Assembly (NCBI GenBank): GCA_900696465.1
Contig: CAADGE010000046.1
Coordinates: 1 to 64,000, forward strand
Source: an uncultured Planctomycetota bacterium
GTDB taxonomy: Bacteria; Planctomycetota; Phycisphaerae; UBA1845; UTPLA1
Length of the DNA: 64,000 nucleotides
Reading direction: 5' to 3'
The notes under the pieces were generated by a model, which had not been told where the DNA came from, ran no database searches, and saw only the letters and a program-made list of their open reading frames with translations. Positions 16,060 through 64,000 of the stretch are shown piece after piece. Positions within the stretch are counted from its first letter, which is position 1. Every line of letters starts with the position of its first letter. Position numbers and translations under genes: made by a program.

Positions 16060-16562
16060 CGGCGGGCGGATCGCGCTTCGTGGAATTCATCGACGAGCCG
16101 ACGGCACTGCCCGAAGTGCAAACGCCGACCGACCGGCAAATGCTGCGTATGCTGTTCTGGAAAGTGAGATGGGCGGGATAACGGGCAGGGCTGGCTGGTA
16201 AAAAAATGCTGTGCGGCAGGCACGCCAGTCTGGTCACGAGTGTTCGGGCCGGAGAGAGGAAGGATCGTGACCGAACCGTAGGCGGCGCACCCACCGCACA
16301 TCCTCTGTGGGATTAAATGGCAAGCCATGTGCCATCGCGTCGAAATTGCGAGGCGGAGCAGATTGCTCCAGTTGAGTGCGCTGAATGGAGAGACGCGCTC
16401 CTGAATGTCGGGCGAATGTCGCTTAGCGAGTCTGGAAGTGCGTGTTTCAGGACGCACCGACCTGCGGTGCGTTCTGAAGCAGGCGGAGGTTTCCGCTCTG
16501 CCGCGAGAATATCCGCAGGAGAAGCGAGGGCACTGCCCCGAACTGACGATCGAAACCGAACA
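16060..16562. other. 503-base gap without a supported gene
   Basis: Open frames here are short and compositionally unlike the neighbours, and none has both a ribosome site and recognisable sequence. A plus-strand frame at 16317-16628 runs antisense into the 3' end of the GH3 gene and is rejected. The region may hold the promoter of the glycosyltransferase and the 3' untranslated part of the GH3 transcript. Confidence 0.4.
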
Positions 16563-54645: not shown

Positions 54646-57600
54646 ATGTTTAATCGCAGAGTCCCATCGTTGTGCGCAGCGCTGACGCTGTGTATCTGTC
54701 TTGCCATTGGTCAGAGTTGGGCGAACGACCTTACGGCCGCTCCGTCTGACGTGTCGGACAATCAGATCCGGCTCAAGAACGGCGAACTCCGCAAGGATCG
54801 CAGTTACACCAGTCAGGCCCGTCCGAACGCATCGTACAACGTGCGCCCGGTCTATCCGGTTCTGCTCCCGCAGATGGATGAAAACGCCGCACAGCCGCGT
54901 GGCGTTGCCCCGGACTGCACGCTGCCTCCATGCGACATCATCATCTATGACAATCTTGCTGGCCCGGCGTCGGCCGGCGCCTTCGGTGATAACGACGGTG
55001 TGCCGCTCTATGACGACTGCGCGCTGGTCGGCCTGGATCGCTTCATCTGCCGATTCACGCTCGGCCTTGGCGGACTGAACAACACCGGCGGCATCGCCCC
55101 GGTCACGCTTGAGATCCGCAGCGGAAACTACTTCCCGATCTGCCCGGAAGACCCCCGCTCGGAAGTTCTCTACACGGCCACCCAGAACATCGCCCTGACC
55201 AACCCCTTTAACCTTGTCAGCTACAACGTCGATCCGCCGGTCTTCCTCGACTACGACTTCTTCTGGGTCGGTGTCAGCACGCCTCCGCCGGATAACGACG
55301 CCGGCTGGACCATCGGCGGCCAAGCCGAAGTCGGCTACACCGAGAACAACATCGTCATCCCCAACATGAACGGGACCTGCGAAGACCTCGGCCCCGGCCA
55401 GATGGACGACTATTTCTGGTACGGCGGTGATCCGTGGGCCGGCATGGGTGTTCAGATTCTGGCCAACCCCGGCCCTCCGGGCGCCTGCTGCGTCCGCGAC
55501 ATCGACCTCGGTGGCGGCCTGGCCCAGTGCGATGACGAAGTGTTCCGCTCGCAGTGTCTCTCGGCGAGCACGACGAACCTCTGGCGACCGGGCGAGTGCG
55601 CCGAATTCGGCGAAGACCCGCCCTGTGCACCGTGTATCTCACAGGCCGGCGCCTGCGACGGCGCGACGGTAGCTTCGGAGGCCAACTGCTCCAACGGTTA
55701 CATCGACACGCACAATCCTGACTGCACGGTCCCGAGTCTTCCGATCATCGGCTGCGGCGATCGCATCTGCGGCACTTCCGGAACGTACGCTTCTGCTTGT
55801 ACGACGGATACACAGTGCGCCGGTGGCATCAGCTGCGTGGGCGGCGTCTGCGACGGCCCGCCGGACACGCGCGACAACGACTGGTATCGCCTGGTGCTGA
55901 CCGAGACCCGCCAGGTCTCGATCAAGGTGCGGGCGCGATTCGCAGTTCAGCTTTCGCTGATGAACAACGGCGGCGATCCACTGACCTGCTCCGACGAGGC
56001 CCTCGATTTCGAAGCCGGCCGCGCCTGTGAAGAGCTGGTGATCAACCGCTGCCTGCCCGCCGGCACCTGGCATGTGCGCGTCCGACCGGACACGTTCTCG
56101 GCCATCCCGTGCGATACGCGGTATCGGCTTGAGGTCGACTGTGGCTCGTGCACACTGCCGACCGGCGCCTGCTGCGATGCCAGCATGGCCGGTTGTTCGA
56201 TTCTGGCCGAAGTGGCCTGCGTGGGTCGCGACGGTGTCTATCGCGGCAACGATACCACATGCGAAACGGCGGACTGCCCCGGCGTTCCGGCCAACAACCT
56301 CTGCTCGGCGGCGACGCTGCTGCCGACGTCGGCCGTGCGTATCAGCTTCCGGCTGGATACGACCTTCGCGTCGGACACCACGACGCCGCCGGCCGATCCC
56401 GGTAACTGCACGAACGAGCTGGACAACGGCACCACGCCGATCCGCAAGGACGTCTTCTTCCGCTATCGCATTCCCACGAACTACCTGGGAACGGCGATCA
56501 CGATCGGTGACGTGGTCATCAGCACCAACGACCAGCCGGATCATCCGCACGAGTCGCTGTTTGACACCTGGGTGGTGGTCTACGGCAATCCGTCGATGGC
56601 CAATCCCTGCGACGCGGCGACGTTGTGCGGCCGCCCGCAGTACGAGTGCAACGACAACATCCTCAACAACGGTACGAACTTCAAGTTCAACTCGCTTTCG
56701 CACCTCGTCATTCCCGTGCAATCGGGAAGCGGTTCGCTCTTTGATCCGGGCGATTGCATCCTGATCCGCGTTGGTCGAGGCGTCAGCGGGATCACCCCGG
56801 CCAACCCGCCGGGCGGTCCGGGCTGGTTGAACATCGACTTCATCCCGCGCAGCGCTCCCTTCTCGCTCGACACGGGAAGATGCTGCTTCGATGCGGATGA
56901 TGCTTTCAAGTGCACCATCGAGTTAACCGAGGCGGCATGCATCGGTGCAGGCGGCTTCCCGCGAAGCCGACTTGACTACAACCAGGGCGACCCCAGCGTG
57001 GTCGAGCAGGTGGCCGGTTGCGATGCCGATCCCTGTCCGCGAGCGGGCGATGCCTGCTACACCGCTTTGGACCTGAATGACATGCTCGGAGGTGATGCGG
57101 GCACGATCACGCGTGGCATCCGGAACGTGACATACTTCAGGTACACGGTCCCGGATGTGGGTGGCATCGTGCTACACACCTGCGGCAGTGCGGGCTTCTA
57201 CGACCCGATCCTCGGTGTCTATCCCAATTCGATAAACGCCAACGGCGACTGCAATCTCAGCGCACTGATCAAGTTCGGCGATGACTGTACGTCCACCACC
57301 TCGGCGGCCGATGGTGCGCTGACGTCCGCCCCCTGTTACGGCGGCATCAACGCGACCTCGAGCGCCTGTCTGTGTCTGAGCGTCGGCCCCGGCATGGACG
57401 TTCAGGCCGGCCAGGAAATCATCATTGCCTTCGGCTCTTCGAACCAGCCCGGCAAGCAGTTCGTCTTCCAGGGTTCACCGCGACTGATCGTGAACCCGGT
57501 GACGGACCCGCTCGACCCGCCGGTTCTGGCTTCGCTGTCGGTGGTCACGCTTTCGCAGTGCTTCTCGTGTCCTTCGGACTGTCCGGGTGGCGCACTGCAG

Positions 57601-60546
57601 GAAGGTTCGGACTTCATCTGTGTCGACACGGCTGATCCCCAGCCGCAGGACCTGCACAACGGCGGATGCAGCGCCACACCGCCGTCCTTCAACGGACCGA
57701 CGATCGATTGTTCGGGCGGACCGGTGGTCATCTGCGGTCGCGCGGGTAACTACCGCCATCCGTTCCCCTGCGACAACACATTCGACTGCCCGAATCTCGA
57801 ACCGTGTTCGGGTCAGGGCGGCTTCTGCATCGGTCCGGCCCGCTTCGTCGCTCGTGACGAGGACTGGTACCGGATCGTCGTGGACAGCCCTCGAACCATC
57901 CGCTGGCGCAGTCTGAGTTCGGAATTCGCGTTGCAGATGGAGATCTTCGCGGATCCCGAGGGCGACTGCGACAACATTTTCGTGCTTGCAGCCGGGTCGA
58001 CGGATTTCGCGTGCACGCCACCGACCGGCGAACCTTCCAACCTTGAGGTGTCCGCCAGCGTCTGCGCCGGTACGTACTATCTGCGTGTCACGCCGTCGGT
58101 CTTCGGCGGCCTGGGCGATACGTCCTGCAACGCCGAGTACACCGTCGAGGCCTCCTGCGAAGAATTTGTCCAGCCGGTTTCCTGCTGCCTGGGCGACATG
58201 AACGGCGACGGCAAGGTGAACGGACTTGACATCCAGAAATGGATCAGCGTCCTGTTCACGCCGCCGACGGCGCTCGACAACTTCCTGGGCTGCTTCGCGG
58301 CCAACTTCTGTCGTGCCGATATCAACAGCAGCGGCGCGATCGACCTGGCCGACCTGCCCGACTTCGTGGATCTGCTGGTCACGGCGAACAAGCCGGTCTG
58401 CACGCTCGGACCGGTTTGTTCCGACGCGGCGACCAGCCAGCTGCCGTTCGACTCGCAGGGCATCACCAAGAGCGACCTCGACGCGACGGATGAACGCCGC
58501 GCCGCAGACTGCTTCAAGCCCCTTGAGAGCGGCATGATCTCCACGGTCTGCTGGTGGGGCGCCTACGCCGACATCGCCGGCGTCGATTGCGGCCCTGAGT
58601 TCGACTGCTTCCAGATCACCTTTTACAGCATGCGGGACGGCTGCGAAAAAACGCAGTTGAACCGCTGTCCGGACCTGCGGATCGAGCCGCCCGGCTCCAT
58701 CTTCGTTCCGGATGCCACGCGCGTGGCCACCGGCGCGATCATCACGCCGAACGGCCTCGTGACCGAGTGGTTCTACACGGCCACGCTGCCGACGCCGATC
58801 CAGGTGACGGCCGGCCAGTGCATGTGGATGGAGATCGTCAACAAGACCCCGGCCAGCAACTGCCAGTGGCATTGGGAACAGTCGCCGCAGGGCGACACCC
58901 GCCATGCCGCCATCCAGTACGTCGTACCCACGGGTGATCTCCCGACGAACTACGACGACTGCACGGCTGCGGCGCGCGACCTGGCGTTCAGCATCAACCT
59001 GCGGATCGACAAGGGCGGCTGCGCCCGGCCGATCGGCCGCTGCTGCTACGACGCCCCGCCGCTCGGCACACTCAACTGTGATAGCACGACGGAAGACTAC
59101 TGCCGTGCGGTACTTAACGGTGAATGGATAGAGGACGGCAATTGTTCTGATCCTCATCCGCCGGGATTGCCAGCAGATCCTCCGTGCGTCGTCGGGCGCT
59201 GCTGCTACCTCGACGAGGAACTGACGCCGCAGTGCGTCAGCACCCTGCTGTCGGCCTGCAATGCCGTCGGTGGTCTCTGGGTCGAGGCGGCTTCCTGTCC
59301 ATGCCCGACCGGCCGCTGCTGTCTGGGCCCTGGCAACTGTCAGGACAGCTACACTGAAATCCAGTGCATCTCGGCCGGCGGTATCTGGGGCCTTGGTGAG
59401 ACCTGCGCCTCACCGTGCCCGACCGGTATCTGCAACAATGTCGGTCGCTGCCAGTTGCCGCATCTGTCCAGCGGTTTGCAGCAGGGCGGCTACGTCAGCG
59501 ATGCGGATAACGAGGTCTCAACGGCTGATGACTTCCGCCCGACCTTCACAAGCGGGCTGAACTACATCGACCAGATCTGCTTCCGTGGATTCCATCGCCG
59601 GACGACGGTCGCGGCGGACTGCGGCGGCGGCGTTGAGACGTCTGAAACCTTCCGGATCACCTACTACGCAAGTGCCGGTGATCTGCCGGATACTTCGACC
59701 ATCATCGGCGGGCCGTTCAACGTGACGCCGCTCAAGAGCGTCCCGGTACCGACAGAAGGTGTTCAGGGCTTCGGTGCCCAGTACCAGTACGAGGCGTTCC
59801 ATGCGGCGGTCCCGGTCACGGCCAACCAGTGCTACTGGATCGAGATCGTCCAGACCGTCTCCGATTCCGATTGCGTCTTCCTCTGGGCGACGTCCAACGA
59901 GGGCGGCAACCAGAAGGCGGCCATCCGGAAGTACGGAGCGGCCGGCGATGCCTTCCCGTACCAGGTCGTGGACCGCGATCTGTCCTTCTGCGTCGGACCG
60001 GTCAACGTCGGCTCGGCCAGTTGTGCCTTCAGCCCGGTGGCGCCGCCGAACAACACCTGTGCCAATGCCATCAACCTCGGCACGGGTTCGATGTCGTCGC
60101 CGGTTGTTGGTACGACGATCGGGGCCACGCTTGAGCCGAACGCCTCCGCAGGATGCACGAACGCGGCCACCGCCGCCGACGTGTATTACAAGTGGACGGC
60201 GGCATCGGGCACGGGCAATCGTGTCTTCAGCTTGTGTTACCTCGACACAACGTTTGACTCTGTTCTTTCGGTCCACCTGACCACGGGCACTAACGTGCCG
60301 CCGGGCGGATGTCCTCCGACGACGGTCACGCAGGTCAACCCGCTGAGCGGCTGTAATGCCGACGGTTGCCCGGCCGGTTTTGGAACGAACTTCCTGTTCT
60401 TCCAGGGTCGCCAGTCCCGCGTCTCCGTGGGTCAGGCGGTCATCCCGGCCGGCTCGACGGTCGTCGTGCGTGTCAGCGGTACCACCAAGGGCGGCCCGGG
60501 CAACAACCCGCCGAACGGCAAGTTCCGGCTGCTCGTCACGCAGTAA
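54646..60546 (+). CDS. giant exported Cys-rich repeat protein with internal dockerin-like module
   Basis: 1966 residues. Signal peptide LCAALTLCICLAIGQSWA. Six Cys-rich modules start G-(A/R)-CC at about 279, 506, 743, 1463, 1517 and 1555 (GACCVRDIDL, GACCDASMAG, GRCCFDADDA, GRCCYDAPPL, GRCCYLDEEL, GRCCLGPGNC). Two larger duplicated units contain DTRDNDWYRLVLTETRQ and ARDEDWYRIVVDSPRT. A dockerin-like module GDMNGDGKVNGLDIQKW lies at about 1180-1255, internal rather than terminal. Two related jelly-roll-like units follow (FQITFYSMRDGCEK; FRITYYASAGDLPD). No enzyme motif is visible. A structural or adhesive surface role with many disulfides is plausible. AAGGAG precedes the ATG and a terminator follows the stop. 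Confidence 0.88.
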   Translation: MFNRRVPSLCAALTLCICLAIGQSWANDLTAAPSDVSDNQIRLKNGELRKDRSYTSQARPNASYNVRPVYPVLLPQMDENAAQPRGVAPDCTLPPCDIIIYDNLAGPASAGAFGDNDGVPLYDDCALVGLDRFICRFTLGLGGLNNTGGIAPVTLEIRSGNYFPICPEDPRSEVLYTATQNIALTNPFNLVSYNVDPPVFLDYDFFWVGVSTPPPDNDAGWTIGGQAEVGYTENNIVIPNMNGTCEDLGPGQMDDYFWYGGDPWAGMGVQILANPGPPGACCVRDIDLGGGLAQCDDEVFRSQCLSASTTNLWRPGECAEFGEDPPCAPCISQAGACDGATVASEANCSNGYIDTHNPDCTVPSLPIIGCGDRICGTSGTYASACTTDTQCAGGISCVGGVCDGPPDTRDNDWYRLVLTETRQVSIKVRARFAVQLSLMNNGGDPLTCSDEALDFEAGRACEELVINRCLPAGTWHVRVRPDTFSAIPCDTRYRLEVDCGSCTLPTGACCDASMAGCSILAEVACVGRDGVYRGNDTTCETADCPGVPANNLCSAATLLPTSAVRISFRLDTTFASDTTTPPADPGNCTNELDNGTTPIRKDVFFRYRIPTNYLGTAITIGDVVISTNDQPDHPHESLFDTWVVVYGNPSMANPCDAATLCGRPQYECNDNILNNGTNFKFNSLSHLVIPVQSGSGSLFDPGDCILIRVGRGVSGITPANPPGGPGWLNIDFIPRSAPFSLDTGRCCFDADDAFKCTIELTEAACIGAGGFPRSRLDYNQGDPSVVEQVAGCDADPCPRAGDACYTALDLNDMLGGDAGTITRGIRNVTYFRYTVPDVGGIVLHTCGSAGFYDPILGVYPNSINANGDCNLSALIKFGDDCTSTTSAADGALTSAPCYGGINATSSACLCLSVGPGMDVQAGQEIIIAFGSSNQPGKQFVFQGSPRLIVNPVTDPLDPPVLASLSVVTLSQCFSCPSDCPGGALQEGSDFICVDTADPQPQDLHNGGCSATPPSFNGPTIDCSGGPVVICGRAGNYRHPFPCDNTFDCPNLEPCSGQGGFCIGPARFVARDEDWYRIVVDSPRTIRWRSLSSEFALQMEIFADPEGDCDNIFVLAAGSTDFACTPPTGEPSNLEVSASVCAGTYYLRVTPSVFGGLGDTSCNAEYTVEASCEEFVQPVSCCLGDMNGDGKVNGLDIQKWISVLFTPPTALDNFLGCFAANFCRADINSSGAIDLADLPDFVDLLVTANKPVCTLGPVCSDAATSQLPFDSQGITKSDLDATDERRAADCFKPLESGMISTVCWWGAYADIAGVDCGPEFDCFQITFYSMRDGCEKTQLNRCPDLRIEPPGSIFVPDATRVATGAIITPNGLVTEWFYTATLPTPIQVTAGQCMWMEIVNKTPASNCQWHWEQSPQGDTRHAAIQYVVPTGDLPTNYDDCTAAARDLAFSINLRIDKGGCARPIGRCCYDAPPLGTLNCDSTTEDYCRAVLNGEWIEDGNCSDPHPPGLPADPPCVVGRCCYLDEELTPQCVSTLLSACNAVGGLWVEAASCPCPTGRCCLGPGNCQDSYTEIQCISAGGIWGLGETCASPCPTGICNNVGRCQLPHLSSGLQQGGYVSDADNEVSTADDFRPTFTSGLNYIDQICFRGFHRRTTVAADCGGGVETSETFRITYYASAGDLPDTSTIIGGPFNVTPLKSVPVPTEGVQGFGAQYQYEAFHAAVPVTANQCYWIEIVQTVSDSDCVFLWATSNEGGNQKAAIRKYGAAGDAFPYQVVDRDLSFCVGPVNVGSASCAFSPVAPPNNTCANAINLGTGSMSSPVVGTTIGATLEPNASAGCTNAATAADVYYKWTAASGTGNRVFSLCYLDTTFDSVLSVHLTTGTNVPPGGCPPTTVTQVNPLSGCNADGCPAGFGTNFLFFQGRQSRVSVGQAVIPAGSTVVVRVSGTTKGGPGNNPPNGKFRLLVTQ

Positions 60547-60730: not shown

Positions 60731-61183
60731 CTAGTCCTTGGTGCCGATGTCGTTGGTGAAGGCCGTTAGGACGAGCAAATTCTCATCGCGCTCGTGGCGT
60801 TCAACGTACTGCAGCAGATTCTGGATGCGGCGGCAGCAGTCGAGGATCAGCAGGTGGTCCTCGGGACGCAGGTCGCCCAACTCGCGGTGTATCTCGTCCA
60901 TCAGATGCGCCAAGGCGGCATGCTCGCTCGCCAGCCGCTCGACCTCGCGTGAGAGCGCCGGCCGCTGCTCGACGACGCAAAGCATGTAGCCATCCTGCTC
61001 CTCGAGGGCCATGTGCTTGATCAGATGGGCACGGAGATGGTCGAAGGCCTGTCGCACATCCTGGATCCATCGTCCCTGGTTGGTCCGCGGGCAGATGGCC
61101 GCCTTCTCCTGGAGCTTCTCGGACAGCGTGTGGACCTTTTCGTGCTCCTGGCGCATCCAGTGAGCCAGTTCCTTGGTTTTCAT
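60731..61183 (-). CDS. hemerythrin-like domain protein
   Basis: 150 residues, a four-helix HHE cation-binding domain expected to hold a di-iron site that can bind O2, NO or peroxide. Candidate ligands are His14, His57 and Glu61 in IKHMALEEQD, His88 in SEHAAL, and His130 with Glu134 in ERHERDEN. AAGGAG lies 5 bases before the ATG. It is the third gene of a minus-strand operon (CBS, tandem-Cys protein, hemerythrin) behind a sigma-54 site, opposite a globin-sensor kinase, which supports a role in O2/NO handling. Confidence 0.87.
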   Translation of the reverse strand: MKTKELAHWMRQEHEKVHTLSEKLQEKAAICPRTNQGRWIQDVRQAFDHLRAHLIKHMALEEQDGYMLCVVEQRPALSREVERLASEHAALAHLMDEIHRELGDLRPEDHLLILDCCRRIQNLLQYVERHERDENLLVLTAFTNDIGTKD

Positions 61184-61213
61184 CGCGACTCCTTGCCGAA
61201 TCTGTGCCCGTCG

Positions 61214-61579
61214 TCACTGCCTGGGCGCAGGCGATGCAGCCGGACAGTTGTTGCCCGACAGTTCCATCTCGATCTCATCAACGATCAGCGGAAAATAGGC
61301 GTCCAGCGCGCAATCCAGATCTTCCCGCAGCGGACAGGTGCCGTGGTCATCCTCATGCGGGCAGACCTGGCAGACGCGTAATCGCAGCGTGTCTGCGTAG
61401 GGATCAATCCGCCAGCTGTGCGTCTTCTGTACGATCTCCACGATTTCGGGCAGACTACGGAAAATGGCACAGGTGCGCGACGGCGGCAGACTGCACGTCC
61501 GCGCACTGGTGAAGCGGGCGCAACGCGGGCAGATCAGATTCCGCAGGCGCGCTTCGACTCGGCTTAGCAGCGGTTCCAT
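61214..61579 (-). CDS. small protein with a duplicated Cx2C-x8-C-x7-C motif
   Basis: 121 residues. Two four-Cys sets have identical spacing: Cys17-x2-Cys20-x8-Cys29-x7-Cys37 and Cys70-x2-Cys73-x8-Cys82-x7-Cys90, offset by exactly 53 residues. Each is followed by a predicted helix (IFRSLPEIVEIVQ; AYFPLIVDEIEMEL), so the whole half-domain appears duplicated. Such sets could hold Fe-S clusters or zinc. I do not recognise the family. It overlaps the CBS gene by 16 bases and has AGGAGG 8 bases before the ATG, so translation is probably coupled. It lies 30 bases before the hemerythrin gene. Confidence 0.78.
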   Translation of the reverse strand: MEPLLSRVEARLRNLICPRCARFTSARTCSLPPSRTCAIFRSLPEIVEIVQKTHSWRIDPYADTLRLRVCQVCPHEDDHGTCPLREDLDCALDAYFPLIVDEIEMELSGNNCPAASPAPRQ

Positions 61580-62019
61580 TGTTCTGTCCTCCTCTCCGTG
61601 CAGGCACGATCAACACCGGACCAGCCCGGATTCGTCTCTGCGGCCTGGGAGAGCGCCAGCATCCGCAGGAGATCGTGCGCACCAAGCATGCCGACGACGT
61701 GATCACCCACGACGACCGGCAGTGCGCCATACCGCTTCCGCGTGAGAATATCGACGGCCTCGCAGATCCGGGTGCCTGGGGTCACGGTCTCCGGGTTCGG
61801 GGTCATGACGTCCGCGGCAGTCAGGACATCGATGCGTCGGGTCTGCAGGCCGCCCAGGACATCGCGCTCGGTGATGATGCCGATGAGGCGATTTCGTTCG
61901 TCCACGACCGGAAGCTGGGCAATCCGATGGTGGAAGATCATCGAGGCCACGCGAACGAGCGGCTCGCCGGCAGAAACCGTCATCGGACACGGAATCATGC
62001 AATCTTCGACGAGCATCAT
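61564..62019 (-). CDS. tandem CBS-domain protein
   Basis: 151 residues, two CBS motifs forming one Bateman module that usually binds adenine nucleotides. CBS1: CPMTVSAGEPLVRVASMIFH then HRIAQLPVVDERNRLIGIIT. CBS2: DVMTPNPETVTPGTRICEAV then KRYGALPVVVGDHVVGML. A short basic Cys-containing tail follows. AGGAG precedes two consecutive ATGs (62019 and 62016), and the second is better spaced. First gene of the operon behind the sigma-54 site at 62123-62137, giving a leader of about 90 bases. Its ligand or partner is not shown by sequence. Confidence 0.88.
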   Translation of the reverse strand: MMLVEDCMIPCPMTVSAGEPLVRVASMIFHHRIAQLPVVDERNRLIGIITERDVLGGLQTRRIDVLTAADVMTPNPETVTPGTRICEAVDILTRKRYGALPVVVGDHVVGMLGAHDLLRMLALSQAAETNPGWSGVDRACTERRTEQWNRC

Positions 62020-62122
62020 TTTCTCCTGATTCGCCCGGTGACGACCAGCGCCACCACAGAAGATTCGCGCAGCACCGTCCGACGAAGACCCTCATCATGG
62101 ACGGCGGCGCACGACGAAGGGG

Positions 62123-62137
62123 GCAATGCTCGTGCCA
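62123..62137 (-). promoter_or_regulatory. sigma-54 promoter (-24/-12) of the CBS/tandem-Cys/hemerythrin operon
   Basis: On the minus strand TGGCAC-GAGCA-TTGC, an exact match to the TGGCAC-N5-TTGC core with GG and GC 10 bases apart. Transcription would start near 62111, about 92 bases before the CBS start codon. It faces the CBS operon and is divergent from the site at 62400-62415. Confidence 0.7.
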
Positions 62138-62264
62138 CAGGGTTCACGAAAACCTCAGAGGCAGTGATGCTCGCGATCTCGATCCACCCCCGAGGGCGAT
62201 GGACGACCCGGTCGGCAGGATTACGGGAGCTAACTCCTCGAGGATGGCGAACGACGTAACTTCT

Positions 62265-62314
62265 TTCCGGAACTGAATCTGCGGAAATCTCCGCAGGAAG
62301 ACGGAAGAAATCCG
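62265..62314. promoter_or_regulatory. candidate enhancer (UAS) cluster between divergent sigma-54 promoters
   Basis: Three dyads in 50 bases: TTCCGGAA (62265-62272), CTGCGGA-AATC-TCCGCAG (62279-62296, perfect 7-base arms) and CGGA-AGAAA-TCCG (62302-62314). All share GGA/TCC half-sites. They lie roughly 110-190 bases from both predicted starts, the usual distance for an NtrC-type activator. A further palindrome TCCTCGAGGA lies at 62235-62244. Confidence 0.5.
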
Positions 62315-62399
62315 CCTGACGAGCGGCGTCGAGGGGAGCATCCGCTCGAACTTCGCGGCGATCGACAGCATTGCTCTCGGTATGGGCAAGTCCGCGAAG

Positions 62400-62415
62400 T
62401 GGCATATCAATTGCT
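62400..62415 (+). promoter_or_regulatory. sigma-54 promoter (-24/-12) facing the globin-sensor kinase
   Basis: TGGCAT-ATCAA-TTGCT, one mismatch to the TGGCAC-N5-TTGCW consensus, with GG and GC 10 bases apart. The start would be near 62427, leaving a leader of about 216 bases to the preferred ATG. It suggests autoregulation by the downstream NtrC-like regulator. Confidence 0.55.
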
Positions 62416-62642
62416 TCATCGGGCCTCACAAGTCGCACGGCGGCAGCCGGCGGCAGGACTCGTTTCTCAATGGCCGGGCAATGAAGCAATCTGCCTCTGA
62501 CTACGACCAACCAGGCGATCACAATTCGCACGAGTGTCCTGACCATCAATCGGCGCGAGGCCGGAGCCCCTCGATTTCAGATTCGGCGGCAGGTTCGATC
62601 GTGGGGTATCTCTCCAGCCGTTACGCAAGATATAATCGCGGT

Positions 62643-63824
62643 ATGGCCGGTGATCTGTTCGCGGAAATGAAGCGCTATGTCGGATTCACCGAGGCCGATG
62701 CCCGGACTTTGGCAGACCTTCGAAGTCGAATATCCCCTTATCTTCCAGAGGTGGTTGACCGCTTTTATACCGCCCTGCTGGCGGACCCAACGGCCCGCGC
62801 CGTGCTGGAGGCGGACCCCAATCGCCTGCCCCGCCTGCGTGTCTATCTGCGGGAGTGGCTGGAGATGCTCTTCTGCGGTGTGTACGACACCGCTTATTAC
62901 GAACAGCGCTGCCGCATCGGCCGCACGCATGTTCGCGTCGACCTCCCGCAGCACTACATGTTCACCGCGATGAACATCATCCGTATCAAGCTGAGCGAGC
63001 GCCTGCGTGCCTTTCAATTGCCCAATGCCTGCGAAGCGTTAAATGCCCTGCACAAGCTGCTGGACCTCGAACTGGCGATCATGAATGAGACCTACCGGGA
63101 GGACTACGTTGATCGCATTCAGTCCATCGAGCGGCTTGAGTTCGAGCAGCGTATCAGCGAGTCCGAACACCTGGCCACCATCGGCCAACTGGCTGCCTCA
63201 CTGGCCCACGAGATCAAGAACCCGCTGGCGGGCATCAGCGGAGCGATCCAGGTGCTGGGGGCCGAGCTGAACGACGGACACCCGCACAAGGAGATCATTG
63301 CCGAGGCACTGCGCCAGATCGACCGGCTCGACGCCGCGGTGCGCGATCTTTTACTCTATGCCCGGCCGAAGCAGCCGAGTCTGCGCCGCGAGGATGTCAG
63401 CCAGATCGTTGCGCATGCCCTCATCCTGCTGCGACAGGAGCCGGCATTCCTGCCGGTTCGCGTGCGTTGTGAGGGGCTGACCGAGCAGCACTGGGCTCTG
63501 GTGGATGAGACCCAGATCAAGCAGGTCATCACCAATTTGATGATCAACGCGGCACACGCCTGCGAAGACGGTGGCTCGGTGGAATGCCGCATCTCAAAGC
63601 ACGGTGACAAGGTCCGCCTGGTCATCGAGGACGACGGCGTCGGCATGCAGCCGCATGTCCTGGCCCGGGCGTTCGAGCCCTTCTACACGACGAAGGCCCG
63701 CGGCACAGGGCTGGGGCTTGCCATCTGCCGGAGGATCGTGGAGACGCATCAGGGTACAATCGAGGTCGAGAGCGAGCCCGGTATGGGCACGCGCGTCACC
63801 ATTGAGCTGCCGGGAGCCGCATGA
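62643..63824 (+). CDS. globin-coupled sensor histidine kinase
   Basis: About 393 residues. Residues 1-150 resemble a protoglobin/globin-sensor domain (FYTALLADPTARAVLEADPN; the candidate haem-ligand His96 in IGRTHVRVDLPQHYM), expected to bind haem and sense O2, NO or CO. A linker leads to the H-box with His189 in ASLAHEIKNPLAG, then N-box INAAHACEDGG, and G-boxes DDGVGMQP and GTGLGLAICRRIVE, typical of NtrB-class kinases. No membrane segment is present, so it is cytoplasmic. ATG 62643 is preferred because the globin fold begins there; a TATAAT lies 6 bases before it. ATGs at 62481 and 62382 are alternatives. The stop overlaps the regulator gene by 4 bases. Confidence 0.88.
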   Translation: MAGDLFAEMKRYVGFTEADARTLADLRSRISPYLPEVVDRFYTALLADPTARAVLEADPNRLPRLRVYLREWLEMLFCGVYDTAYYEQRCRIGRTHVRVDLPQHYMFTAMNIIRIKLSERLRAFQLPNACEALNALHKLLDLELAIMNETYREDYVDRIQSIERLEFEQRISESEHLATIGQLAASLAHEIKNPLAGISGAIQVLGAELNDGHPHKEIIAEALRQIDRLDAAVRDLLLYARPKQPSLRREDVSQIVAHALILLRQEPAFLPVRVRCEGLTEQHWALVDETQIKQVITNLMINAAHACEDGGSVECRISKHGDKVRLVIEDDGVGMQPHVLARAFEPFYTTKARGTGLGLAICRRIVETHQGTIEVESEPGMGTRVTIELPGAA

Positions 63825-64000
63825 GCAAGCCACGCATTCTGATCATCGAAGATGAGAAACTCATCCGCTGGTCACTCCGGCAGCGCTTCGGCGAAGAGGG
63901 CTATGTGGTCGAGGATGCCGAGACCGCGGCCGAAGGGCTGGAGAAGTGGTCGTCCTCCACATTTGACCTGGTCATGCTGGACTACAAGCTGCCCGATTCG
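63821..64000 (+). CDS. NtrC-family response regulator, receiver start only (cut by window end)
   Basis: The first 60 residues of a receiver domain: RILIIEDEKLIRWSLRQRFG with the acidic pocket, and FDLVMLDYKLPDS with the phospho-acceptor Asp. The LIRWSLR element is typical of NtrC-like sigma-54 activators, but the AAA+ and DNA-binding parts lie beyond the window, so the class is inferred. Its ATG overlaps the kinase stop (ATGA), so the two form a two-component pair. It is the obvious candidate activator for the two sigma-54 sites upstream. Confidence 0.8.
   Translation, partial: MSKPRILIIEDEKLIRWSLRQRFGEEGYVVEDAETAAEGLEKWSSSTFDLVMLDYKLPDS

Follow-up and report, generated by a model that had tools for sequence, protein, structure and literature searches.

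Which signal is read by the globin-coupled histidine kinase encoded near the end of contig C46 of an uncultured Planctomycetota bacterium, and how is it conveyed to the divergently oriented operon for a CBS-pair protein, an eight-cysteine protein and a hemerythrin? The stretch analyzed, here called the window, comprises positions 1-64000 of C46; the genome has a size of 4.14 Mb. The locus probably encodes a relay-free, two-protein relative of the Nmp oxygen-response system of Myxococcus, a parallel that was not part of an earlier note on this DNA. The domain make-up, the haem residues, the promoter conservation, the dyad of the enhancer and the synteny can be read directly from the sequence, and the regulatory architecture is well supported at this level. 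The features of the locus are:

60731-61183, minus strand: hemerythrin-like diiron protein, third operon gene (PF01814, 34.6 bits; cut-off 25.3)
61214-61579, minus strand: eight-cysteine (eight-Cys) protein, second operon gene, with two copies of CxxC-x8-C-x7-C plus helix; no family match
61564-62019, minus strand: CBS-pair protein, first operon gene (PF00571, two stretches, 94.7 bits)
62122-62137, minus strand: sigma-54 -24/-12 promoter of the CBS-Cys-hemerythrin operon, TGGCACGAGCATTGCC, 10/10 core
62279-62296, no strand: palindrome CTGCGGAAATCTCCGCAG, probable activator (enhancer) site common to both divergent promoters (recurrence in relatives; blind palindromic expectation maximization over 8 genomes, 90.1 compared to 66.8 +/- 1.8 in shuffles)
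62400-62415, plus strand: sigma-54 -24/-12 promoter toward the kinase-regulator pair, TGGCATATCAATTGCT, 9/10 core
62631-62636, plus strand: TATAAT, located 6 nt ahead of the kinase ATG; probable -10 site of a leaderless promoter of the sigma-70 type
62643-63824, plus strand: globin-coupled histidine kinase, start ATG 62643 (Pfam, PDB sequence match, haem residues, start conservation)
63821-64000, plus strand, continuing to C46:65203 (L003:5821-7203): NtrC-type response regulator (receiver, AAA+, Fis-type helix-turn-helix [HTH]), of which the first 60 codons are inside the window

The genes and both promoter cores named in the earlier note were present where it had placed them, and its three-gene operon agreed with the family searches (PF00571 pair, eight-Cys protein, PF01814 above the cut-off). 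The operon is read in the order CBS, eight-Cys, hemerythrin, with an overlap of 16 bases between the first two genes and a gap of 30 bases between the last two. On the other side, the stop of the kinase gene and the start of the regulator gene overlap by 4 bases. The kinase occurred in 15 of the 17 genomes of the family as a single copy each, the eight-Cys protein in 12 of the 17, and the regulator adjoined the kinase in all 14 family genomes with a long enough contig. The genomes compared are related, L038 and L039 closely so, and all conservation counts given here are of non-independent events. At least two of the three operon genes diverged from the kinase-regulator pair in eight genomes, as CBS-Cys-hemerythrin at L003, L033, L038 and L039, Cys-hemerythrin at L034 and L035, CBS-Cys at L037, and CBS-hemerythrin at L043. 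In genome G009 (L108:346-4685, minus strand), the CBS gene of the regulon precedes genes for a Rieske protein, cytochrome b and a cytochrome c with several haems, so that a cytochrome bc-type complex takes the place of Cys-hemerythrin. Because the divergent neighbors differ among the relatives, the gene arrangement is that of a module in which the sensor half is constant and the redox half varies.

The two divergent sigma-54 sites of the earlier note, one exact and one with a single mismatch, were both confirmed. The minus-strand core TGGCAC-N5-TTGC at 62123-62137 is exact, and the plus-strand site TGGCAT-N5-TTGCT at 62400-62415 carries the mismatch. Two exact cores occur in the 64 kb (0.13 expected); the other one, at 16320-16334 (minus strand), is unlinked to the kinase locus. 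In 12 of 15 genomes, the 350 bp upstream of the kinase gene contained a kinase-oriented site matching the core at 9/10 or better. The mean in 500 dinucleotide shuffles was 0.23 and the maximum 2 of 15 genomes, and the opposite strand of these segments never exceeded an 8/10 match. On the operon side, a site of at least 9/10 was found in 8 of 9 genomes, with a mean of 0.09 in mononucleotide shuffles. This conservation compared to the shuffles rules out chance matches. The earlier note had made its reading dependent on the conservation of the -24/-12 sites and had proposed a look at other planctomycete genomes; there, the gene set and the promoter pair both recur.

A probable second, leaderless-type promoter of the kinase gene was not part of the earlier note. 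TANNNT, mostly TATAAT, is located exactly 6 bases before the kinase ATG or GTG in 14 of 15 genomes, and the background of TANNNT-N6-[AG]TG at ATG is 0.39%. This suggests that the element is the -10 site of a basal, leaderless sigma-70-type promoter. Its conservation merely as a coding sequence for "RYNxGM" is unlikely: Tyr is encoded by TAT in every row but L110 (TAC), the residue of the second codon varies (AAT, GAT, ACT) with the final T being kept, and L114 has an in-frame stop at this position. The open frame can be extended back to 62382, ahead of the plus-strand sigma-54 site. Homology and the TATAAT-ATG spacing both favor 62643 and rule out the start at 62382, so that ATG 62643 is most likely the kinase start.

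The sigma-54 sites are separated by 262 bases, the dyad-rich DNA of 260 bases in the earlier note, and the palindrome at 62279-62296 is inside. The conserved dyad between the promoters is TGCGGAAATTTCCGCA. Blind palindromic expectation maximization on eight intergenic regions, using only one of the close pair L038/L039, yielded CTGCGGAAATTTCCGCAG with a score of 95.7 compared to 70.1 +/- 1.7 in shuffles. Tandem copies of the dyad 21 bp apart, which are two helical turns, exist in L034, L035, L043 and L108, and tandem dyads with this spacing are typical of NtrC-type enhancers. The dyad is probably an enhancer shared by both promoters.

The regulator, probably of the NtrC type according to the earlier note, could be read past the window edge. 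It is complete and contains a receiver (RR), a Sigma54_activat domain and a Fis-type HTH_8 domain. The expected AAA+ sigma-54 and Fis-type HTH domains are thus present on the contig beyond 64000, and the GAFTGA-type loop has the variant form GAFTDA in 14 of 14 orthologues. The genome encodes RpoN, with one match to the sigma-54 DNA-binding domain, and seven strong sigma-54 activators, the regulator of this locus among them. Exact sigma-54 sites also precede flgB-like, acetyl-CoA synthetase-like and Hcp-like genes, as named by reading translations (L005, L009, L010; G000:C22:268777, C40:53359, C42:164739), which are probably other functions of sigma-54 in this genome.

What does the kinase sense? 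Pfam searches identified Protoglobin (98.8 bits), HisKA (53.1 bits) and HATPase_c (105.5 bits) domains, and the closest solved structure in a PDB sequence search was the globin domain of AfGcHK (5ohe, E = 1.7e-34; runner-up, 2.5e-18). The globin-sensor N-terminus of the earlier note is therefore a Protoglobin domain, and the protein is an AfGcHK-like globin-coupled histidine kinase. Among 14 orthologues, the proximal His99 and Leu68 of the haem pocket and the HEIKN H-box were conserved in all 14 and the distal Tyr45 in 13. The Fe(II)-O2 and Fe(III) forms of AfGcHK are active, and the Fe(II) form is inactive (PMC8697598). The likeness covers the sensor domain, the haem residues, the kinase type and a nearby CBS gene, since a dual-CBS gene is located directly upstream of the AfGcHK gene in Anaeromyxobacter sp. 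Fw109-5 (PMC11841059). The phosphate acceptors differ: from AfGcHK, the phosphate goes to the first of the receivers in an NmpT homologue (PMC6211767), whereas the neighboring partner in the planctomycete is an NtrC-type activator. Outside the family, AfGcHK-type globin kinases were found in 73 other genomes out of 384 of the phylum, in varied contexts. Two haem-copper oxidases are encoded in the genome, one of cbb3-like organization as judged by reading translations, and O2 should therefore be a meaningful signal for this organism. It is the probable signal of the globin kinase.

Nitric oxide (NO) has to be considered as well. NorR is also a sigma-54 activator and, with norVW, resembles this locus as a gas-responsive regulator beside a divergent operon for O2/NO chemistry, but the GAF domain of NorR itself senses NO, and sensing is assigned here to a separate globin kinase. 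In an NO defense module, the globin would sense NO, and the hemerythrin and the eight-Cys protein would repair nitrosylated iron-sulphur clusters, as in NorR/RIC-type systems. In line with this explanation, the hemerythrin is weakly similar to RIC (TIGR03652, E = 0.0022, far below the cut-off), and an Rrf2 regulator gene adjoins the Cys-protein locus L092. It is nevertheless unlikely: no gene for an NO reductase or flavorubredoxin was seen beside the locus, the distal Tyr and proximal His fit the O2-type pocket of AfGcHK, and this solved relative is an O2 sensor.

The comparison with Myxococcus xanthus supplies the closest regulatory precedent. There, under hypoxia, NmpR acts via sigma-54 and tandem GCGCA-N5-TGCGC sites and activates a CBS gene, a hemN-hemerythrin unit, a cbb3 oxidase and its kinase operon, nmpU; NmpU is a haem-dependent globin-coupled kinase acting through NmpS (PMC11841059, PMC6211767). 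The nmpU promoter depends on NmpR, and the CBS gene and hemN-hemerythrin depend on sigma-54 (PMC11841059). Both systems share a globin kinase, an NtrC-like regulator, sigma-54 promoters, and CBS and hemerythrin targets, and in Myxococcus the kinase promoter is regulator dependent. They differ in that the planctomycete CBS and hemerythrin genes form a single operon with the eight-Cys gene, in that the kinase gene has the probable second, TATAAT leaderless-type promoter, and possibly in an inverted response sign. The hybrid kinase NmpS and NmpT are not encoded at the locus in any relative read (elsewhere in the genome was not searched), and the kinase and regulator genes overlap. Homologues of NmpSTU and their synteny in Planctomycetes have been reported before (PMC6211767), and some planctomycete globin-coupled kinases outside the family adjoin further kinases and receivers (L130, L139, L140, L145). 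Together with the same kinds of genes and targets (PMC11841059), this would fit a true NmpRSTU orthologue, in which the kinase signals via NmpS/NmpT-like proteins from other loci and hypoxia induces the operon, as it does in M. xanthus. The 4-base overlap, the adjacency in 14 genomes with no hybrid kinase gene in between, and the single globin-coupled kinase per genome make this improbable. With respect to the planctomycete combination of globin kinase, NtrC regulator and Cys-hemerythrin operon, the literature search returned only the Myxococcus papers.

Several observations weigh against the relay-free, two-protein reading with a shared enhancer. A kinase-side site of at least 9/10 was not found in L037, L111 and L114, and L035 has Cys-hemerythrin without a matching sigma-54 site on the operon side. 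No -35 match was found upstream of TATAAT. The dyad match is weak at L033, L034 and L037, so that the operator is uncertain in these. The planctomycete operator TGCGGAAATTTCCGCA with its 21-bp spacing differs from the GCGCA-N5-TGCGC of Myxococcus with gaps of 14 to 15 bp, and a CGCA-N5-TGCG core, similar to the NmpR half-site, occurs only in the relatives L035 and L043. The NmpR operator was accordingly rejected as the operator of the locus, TGCGGAAATTTCCGCA being the dominant motif. Finally, the enhancer word was not enriched genome-wide (108 vs 122 in the control) and further targets were not found. None of 8 exact sigma-54 sites elsewhere had a strong enhancer copy upstream, which left no basis for a genome-wide regulon defined by this word, and no copy was found in the cbb3 oxidase region.

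Concerning the operon products, the diiron ligands of the hemerythrin, H57-x3-E61, H88 and H130-x3-E134, are invariant in the relatives, and His14 of helix A is Gln in two of them. The undescribed family of the eight-Cys protein is the most novel part of the system. CxxC-x8-C-x7-C occurs twice, and both halves align with each other in the relatives, which makes the duplicated four-Cys protein of the earlier note a true internal duplication. All eight Cys plus Y61, R66, R85, D89, L92, D93 and Y95 are invariant among 27 sequences. The protein had no match in Pfam, NCBIfam, PDB sequences or a fold search (predicted model with a pLDDT, the predicted local distance difference test, of 74); an LRV_FeS match (E = 0.02 in two members) was too weak to be used, and an Rfam search gave no match. 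Of the "apparently undescribed metal protein" in the earlier note, the undescribed family thus stands, and the metal is a prediction: since the eight Cys are invariant and the neighbors are redox genes, the protein probably binds Fe-S or Zn.

Outside the family, the protein is encoded by 7 other genomes out of 392 surveyed across the phylum, one with a weak partial match, and by metagenome-assembled genomes of Ignavibacteria/Bacteroidota/Chlorobi and Omnitrophota. Non-planctomycete neighbors are Rieske/cytochrome b genes at L080, L084, L086 and L088, 2-oxoacid:ferredoxin oxidoreductase (OFOR) genes at L073, L087, L089, L090 and L092, radical SAM genes at L077 and L083, and a hemerythrin gene directly downstream at L087 and L090; those at L086 and at the OFOR loci except L092 were named by reading translations and not by a family scan. 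The Rieske/cytochrome b, OFOR and hemerythrin neighbors point toward a role in oxygen-sensitive electron transfer. A protein of 85 to 100 residues with an N-terminal Cys-rich stretch (CAHNCKEFC) and without a Pfam match is encoded between the OFOR genes and the eight-Cys gene:

L087:1231-1491: CAHNCKEFC protein
L090:3635-3937: CAHNCKEFC protein
L092:7365-7625: CAHNCKEFC protein
L073:3667-3924: CAHNCKEFC protein

In L043, an eight-Cys domain is joined to the C-terminal end of a receiver-like domain (L043:8698-9462, minus strand) beside a DUF4405 membrane cytochrome-like gene (L043:8096-8611), 4 kb from the CBS-hemerythrin operon of this genome, which lacks the Cys gene. Such a fusion could be taken as a sign of pure signaling, with the CBS, Cys and hemerythrin proteins as extra ligand sensors feeding back on the kinase and without a protective or metabolic role, and sensory roles are common among CBS and hemerythrin domains. 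The presence of the Cys gene within metabolic operons (OFOR, Rieske/cytochrome b) in other phyla speaks against this explanation, which is the least probable of those considered. Adjoining the locus at window positions 54646-60546 (plus strand) is a gene for a Cys-rich, apparently secreted protein of 1966 residues with dockerin-like stretches; a homologue of the same size adjoins the locus at L034:9924-15821.

Returning to the relay-free relative of the Nmp system, we infer the ligand, the response sign, the direct phosphotransfer and, for the Cys protein, its metal and its function as follows. O2 is the most likely diatomic ligand of the haem globin of the kinase (NO or ferric haem being possible). 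Its binding would alter autophosphorylation, and the phosphate would be handed straight to the NtrC-type regulator, whose translation is coupled to that of the kinase. The phosphorylated regulator would assemble into oligomers at the intergenic TGCGGAAATTTCCGCA enhancer and open the two divergent sigma-54 promoters, one driving the CBS-Cys-hemerythrin operon and the other the kinase-regulator pair in a positive feedback. A basal leaderless transcript from the TATAAT element would mean that the sensor is present before induction. The hemerythrin may buffer O2 or NO, the CBS protein may report the adenylate state, and the eight-Cys protein may serve oxygen-sensitive iron-sulphur electron transfer. 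Since the O2-bound form of AfGcHK is active and the deoxy form is not, and since no inverter is encoded at the locus, O2 would turn the operon on, opposite to M. xanthus, if the sign of AfGcHK holds and nothing inverts it. Activation of a protective or signaling operon by haem sensing of O2 or NO, as proposed in the earlier note, thus gains support for its architecture, the domains and conserved promoters; the gas and the protective or signaling role stay at the level of a proposal.

A further-reaching and tentative possibility is that a new metal-cluster family extending across phyla, with the eight-Cys protein as its first recognized representative, serves in the protection or maturation of electron-transfer enzymes that are sensitive to oxygen (Rieske/cytochrome b, 2-oxoacid:ferredoxin oxidoreductases). 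In planctomycetes, the protein would then have come, along with a hemerythrin, under the control of a globin/NtrC switch that has no relay and a sign opposite to that in Myxococcus (O2-on). The minimal path from a haem globin to sigma-54 at this locus would allow a direct test of how the lack of the NmpS inverter affects the sign of an oxygen response. The unnamed, strictly conserved eight-Cys family, which recurs beside redox enzymes in Planctomycetota, Ignavibacteria and Omnitrophota, would here be accessible through a regulatory handle on its function.

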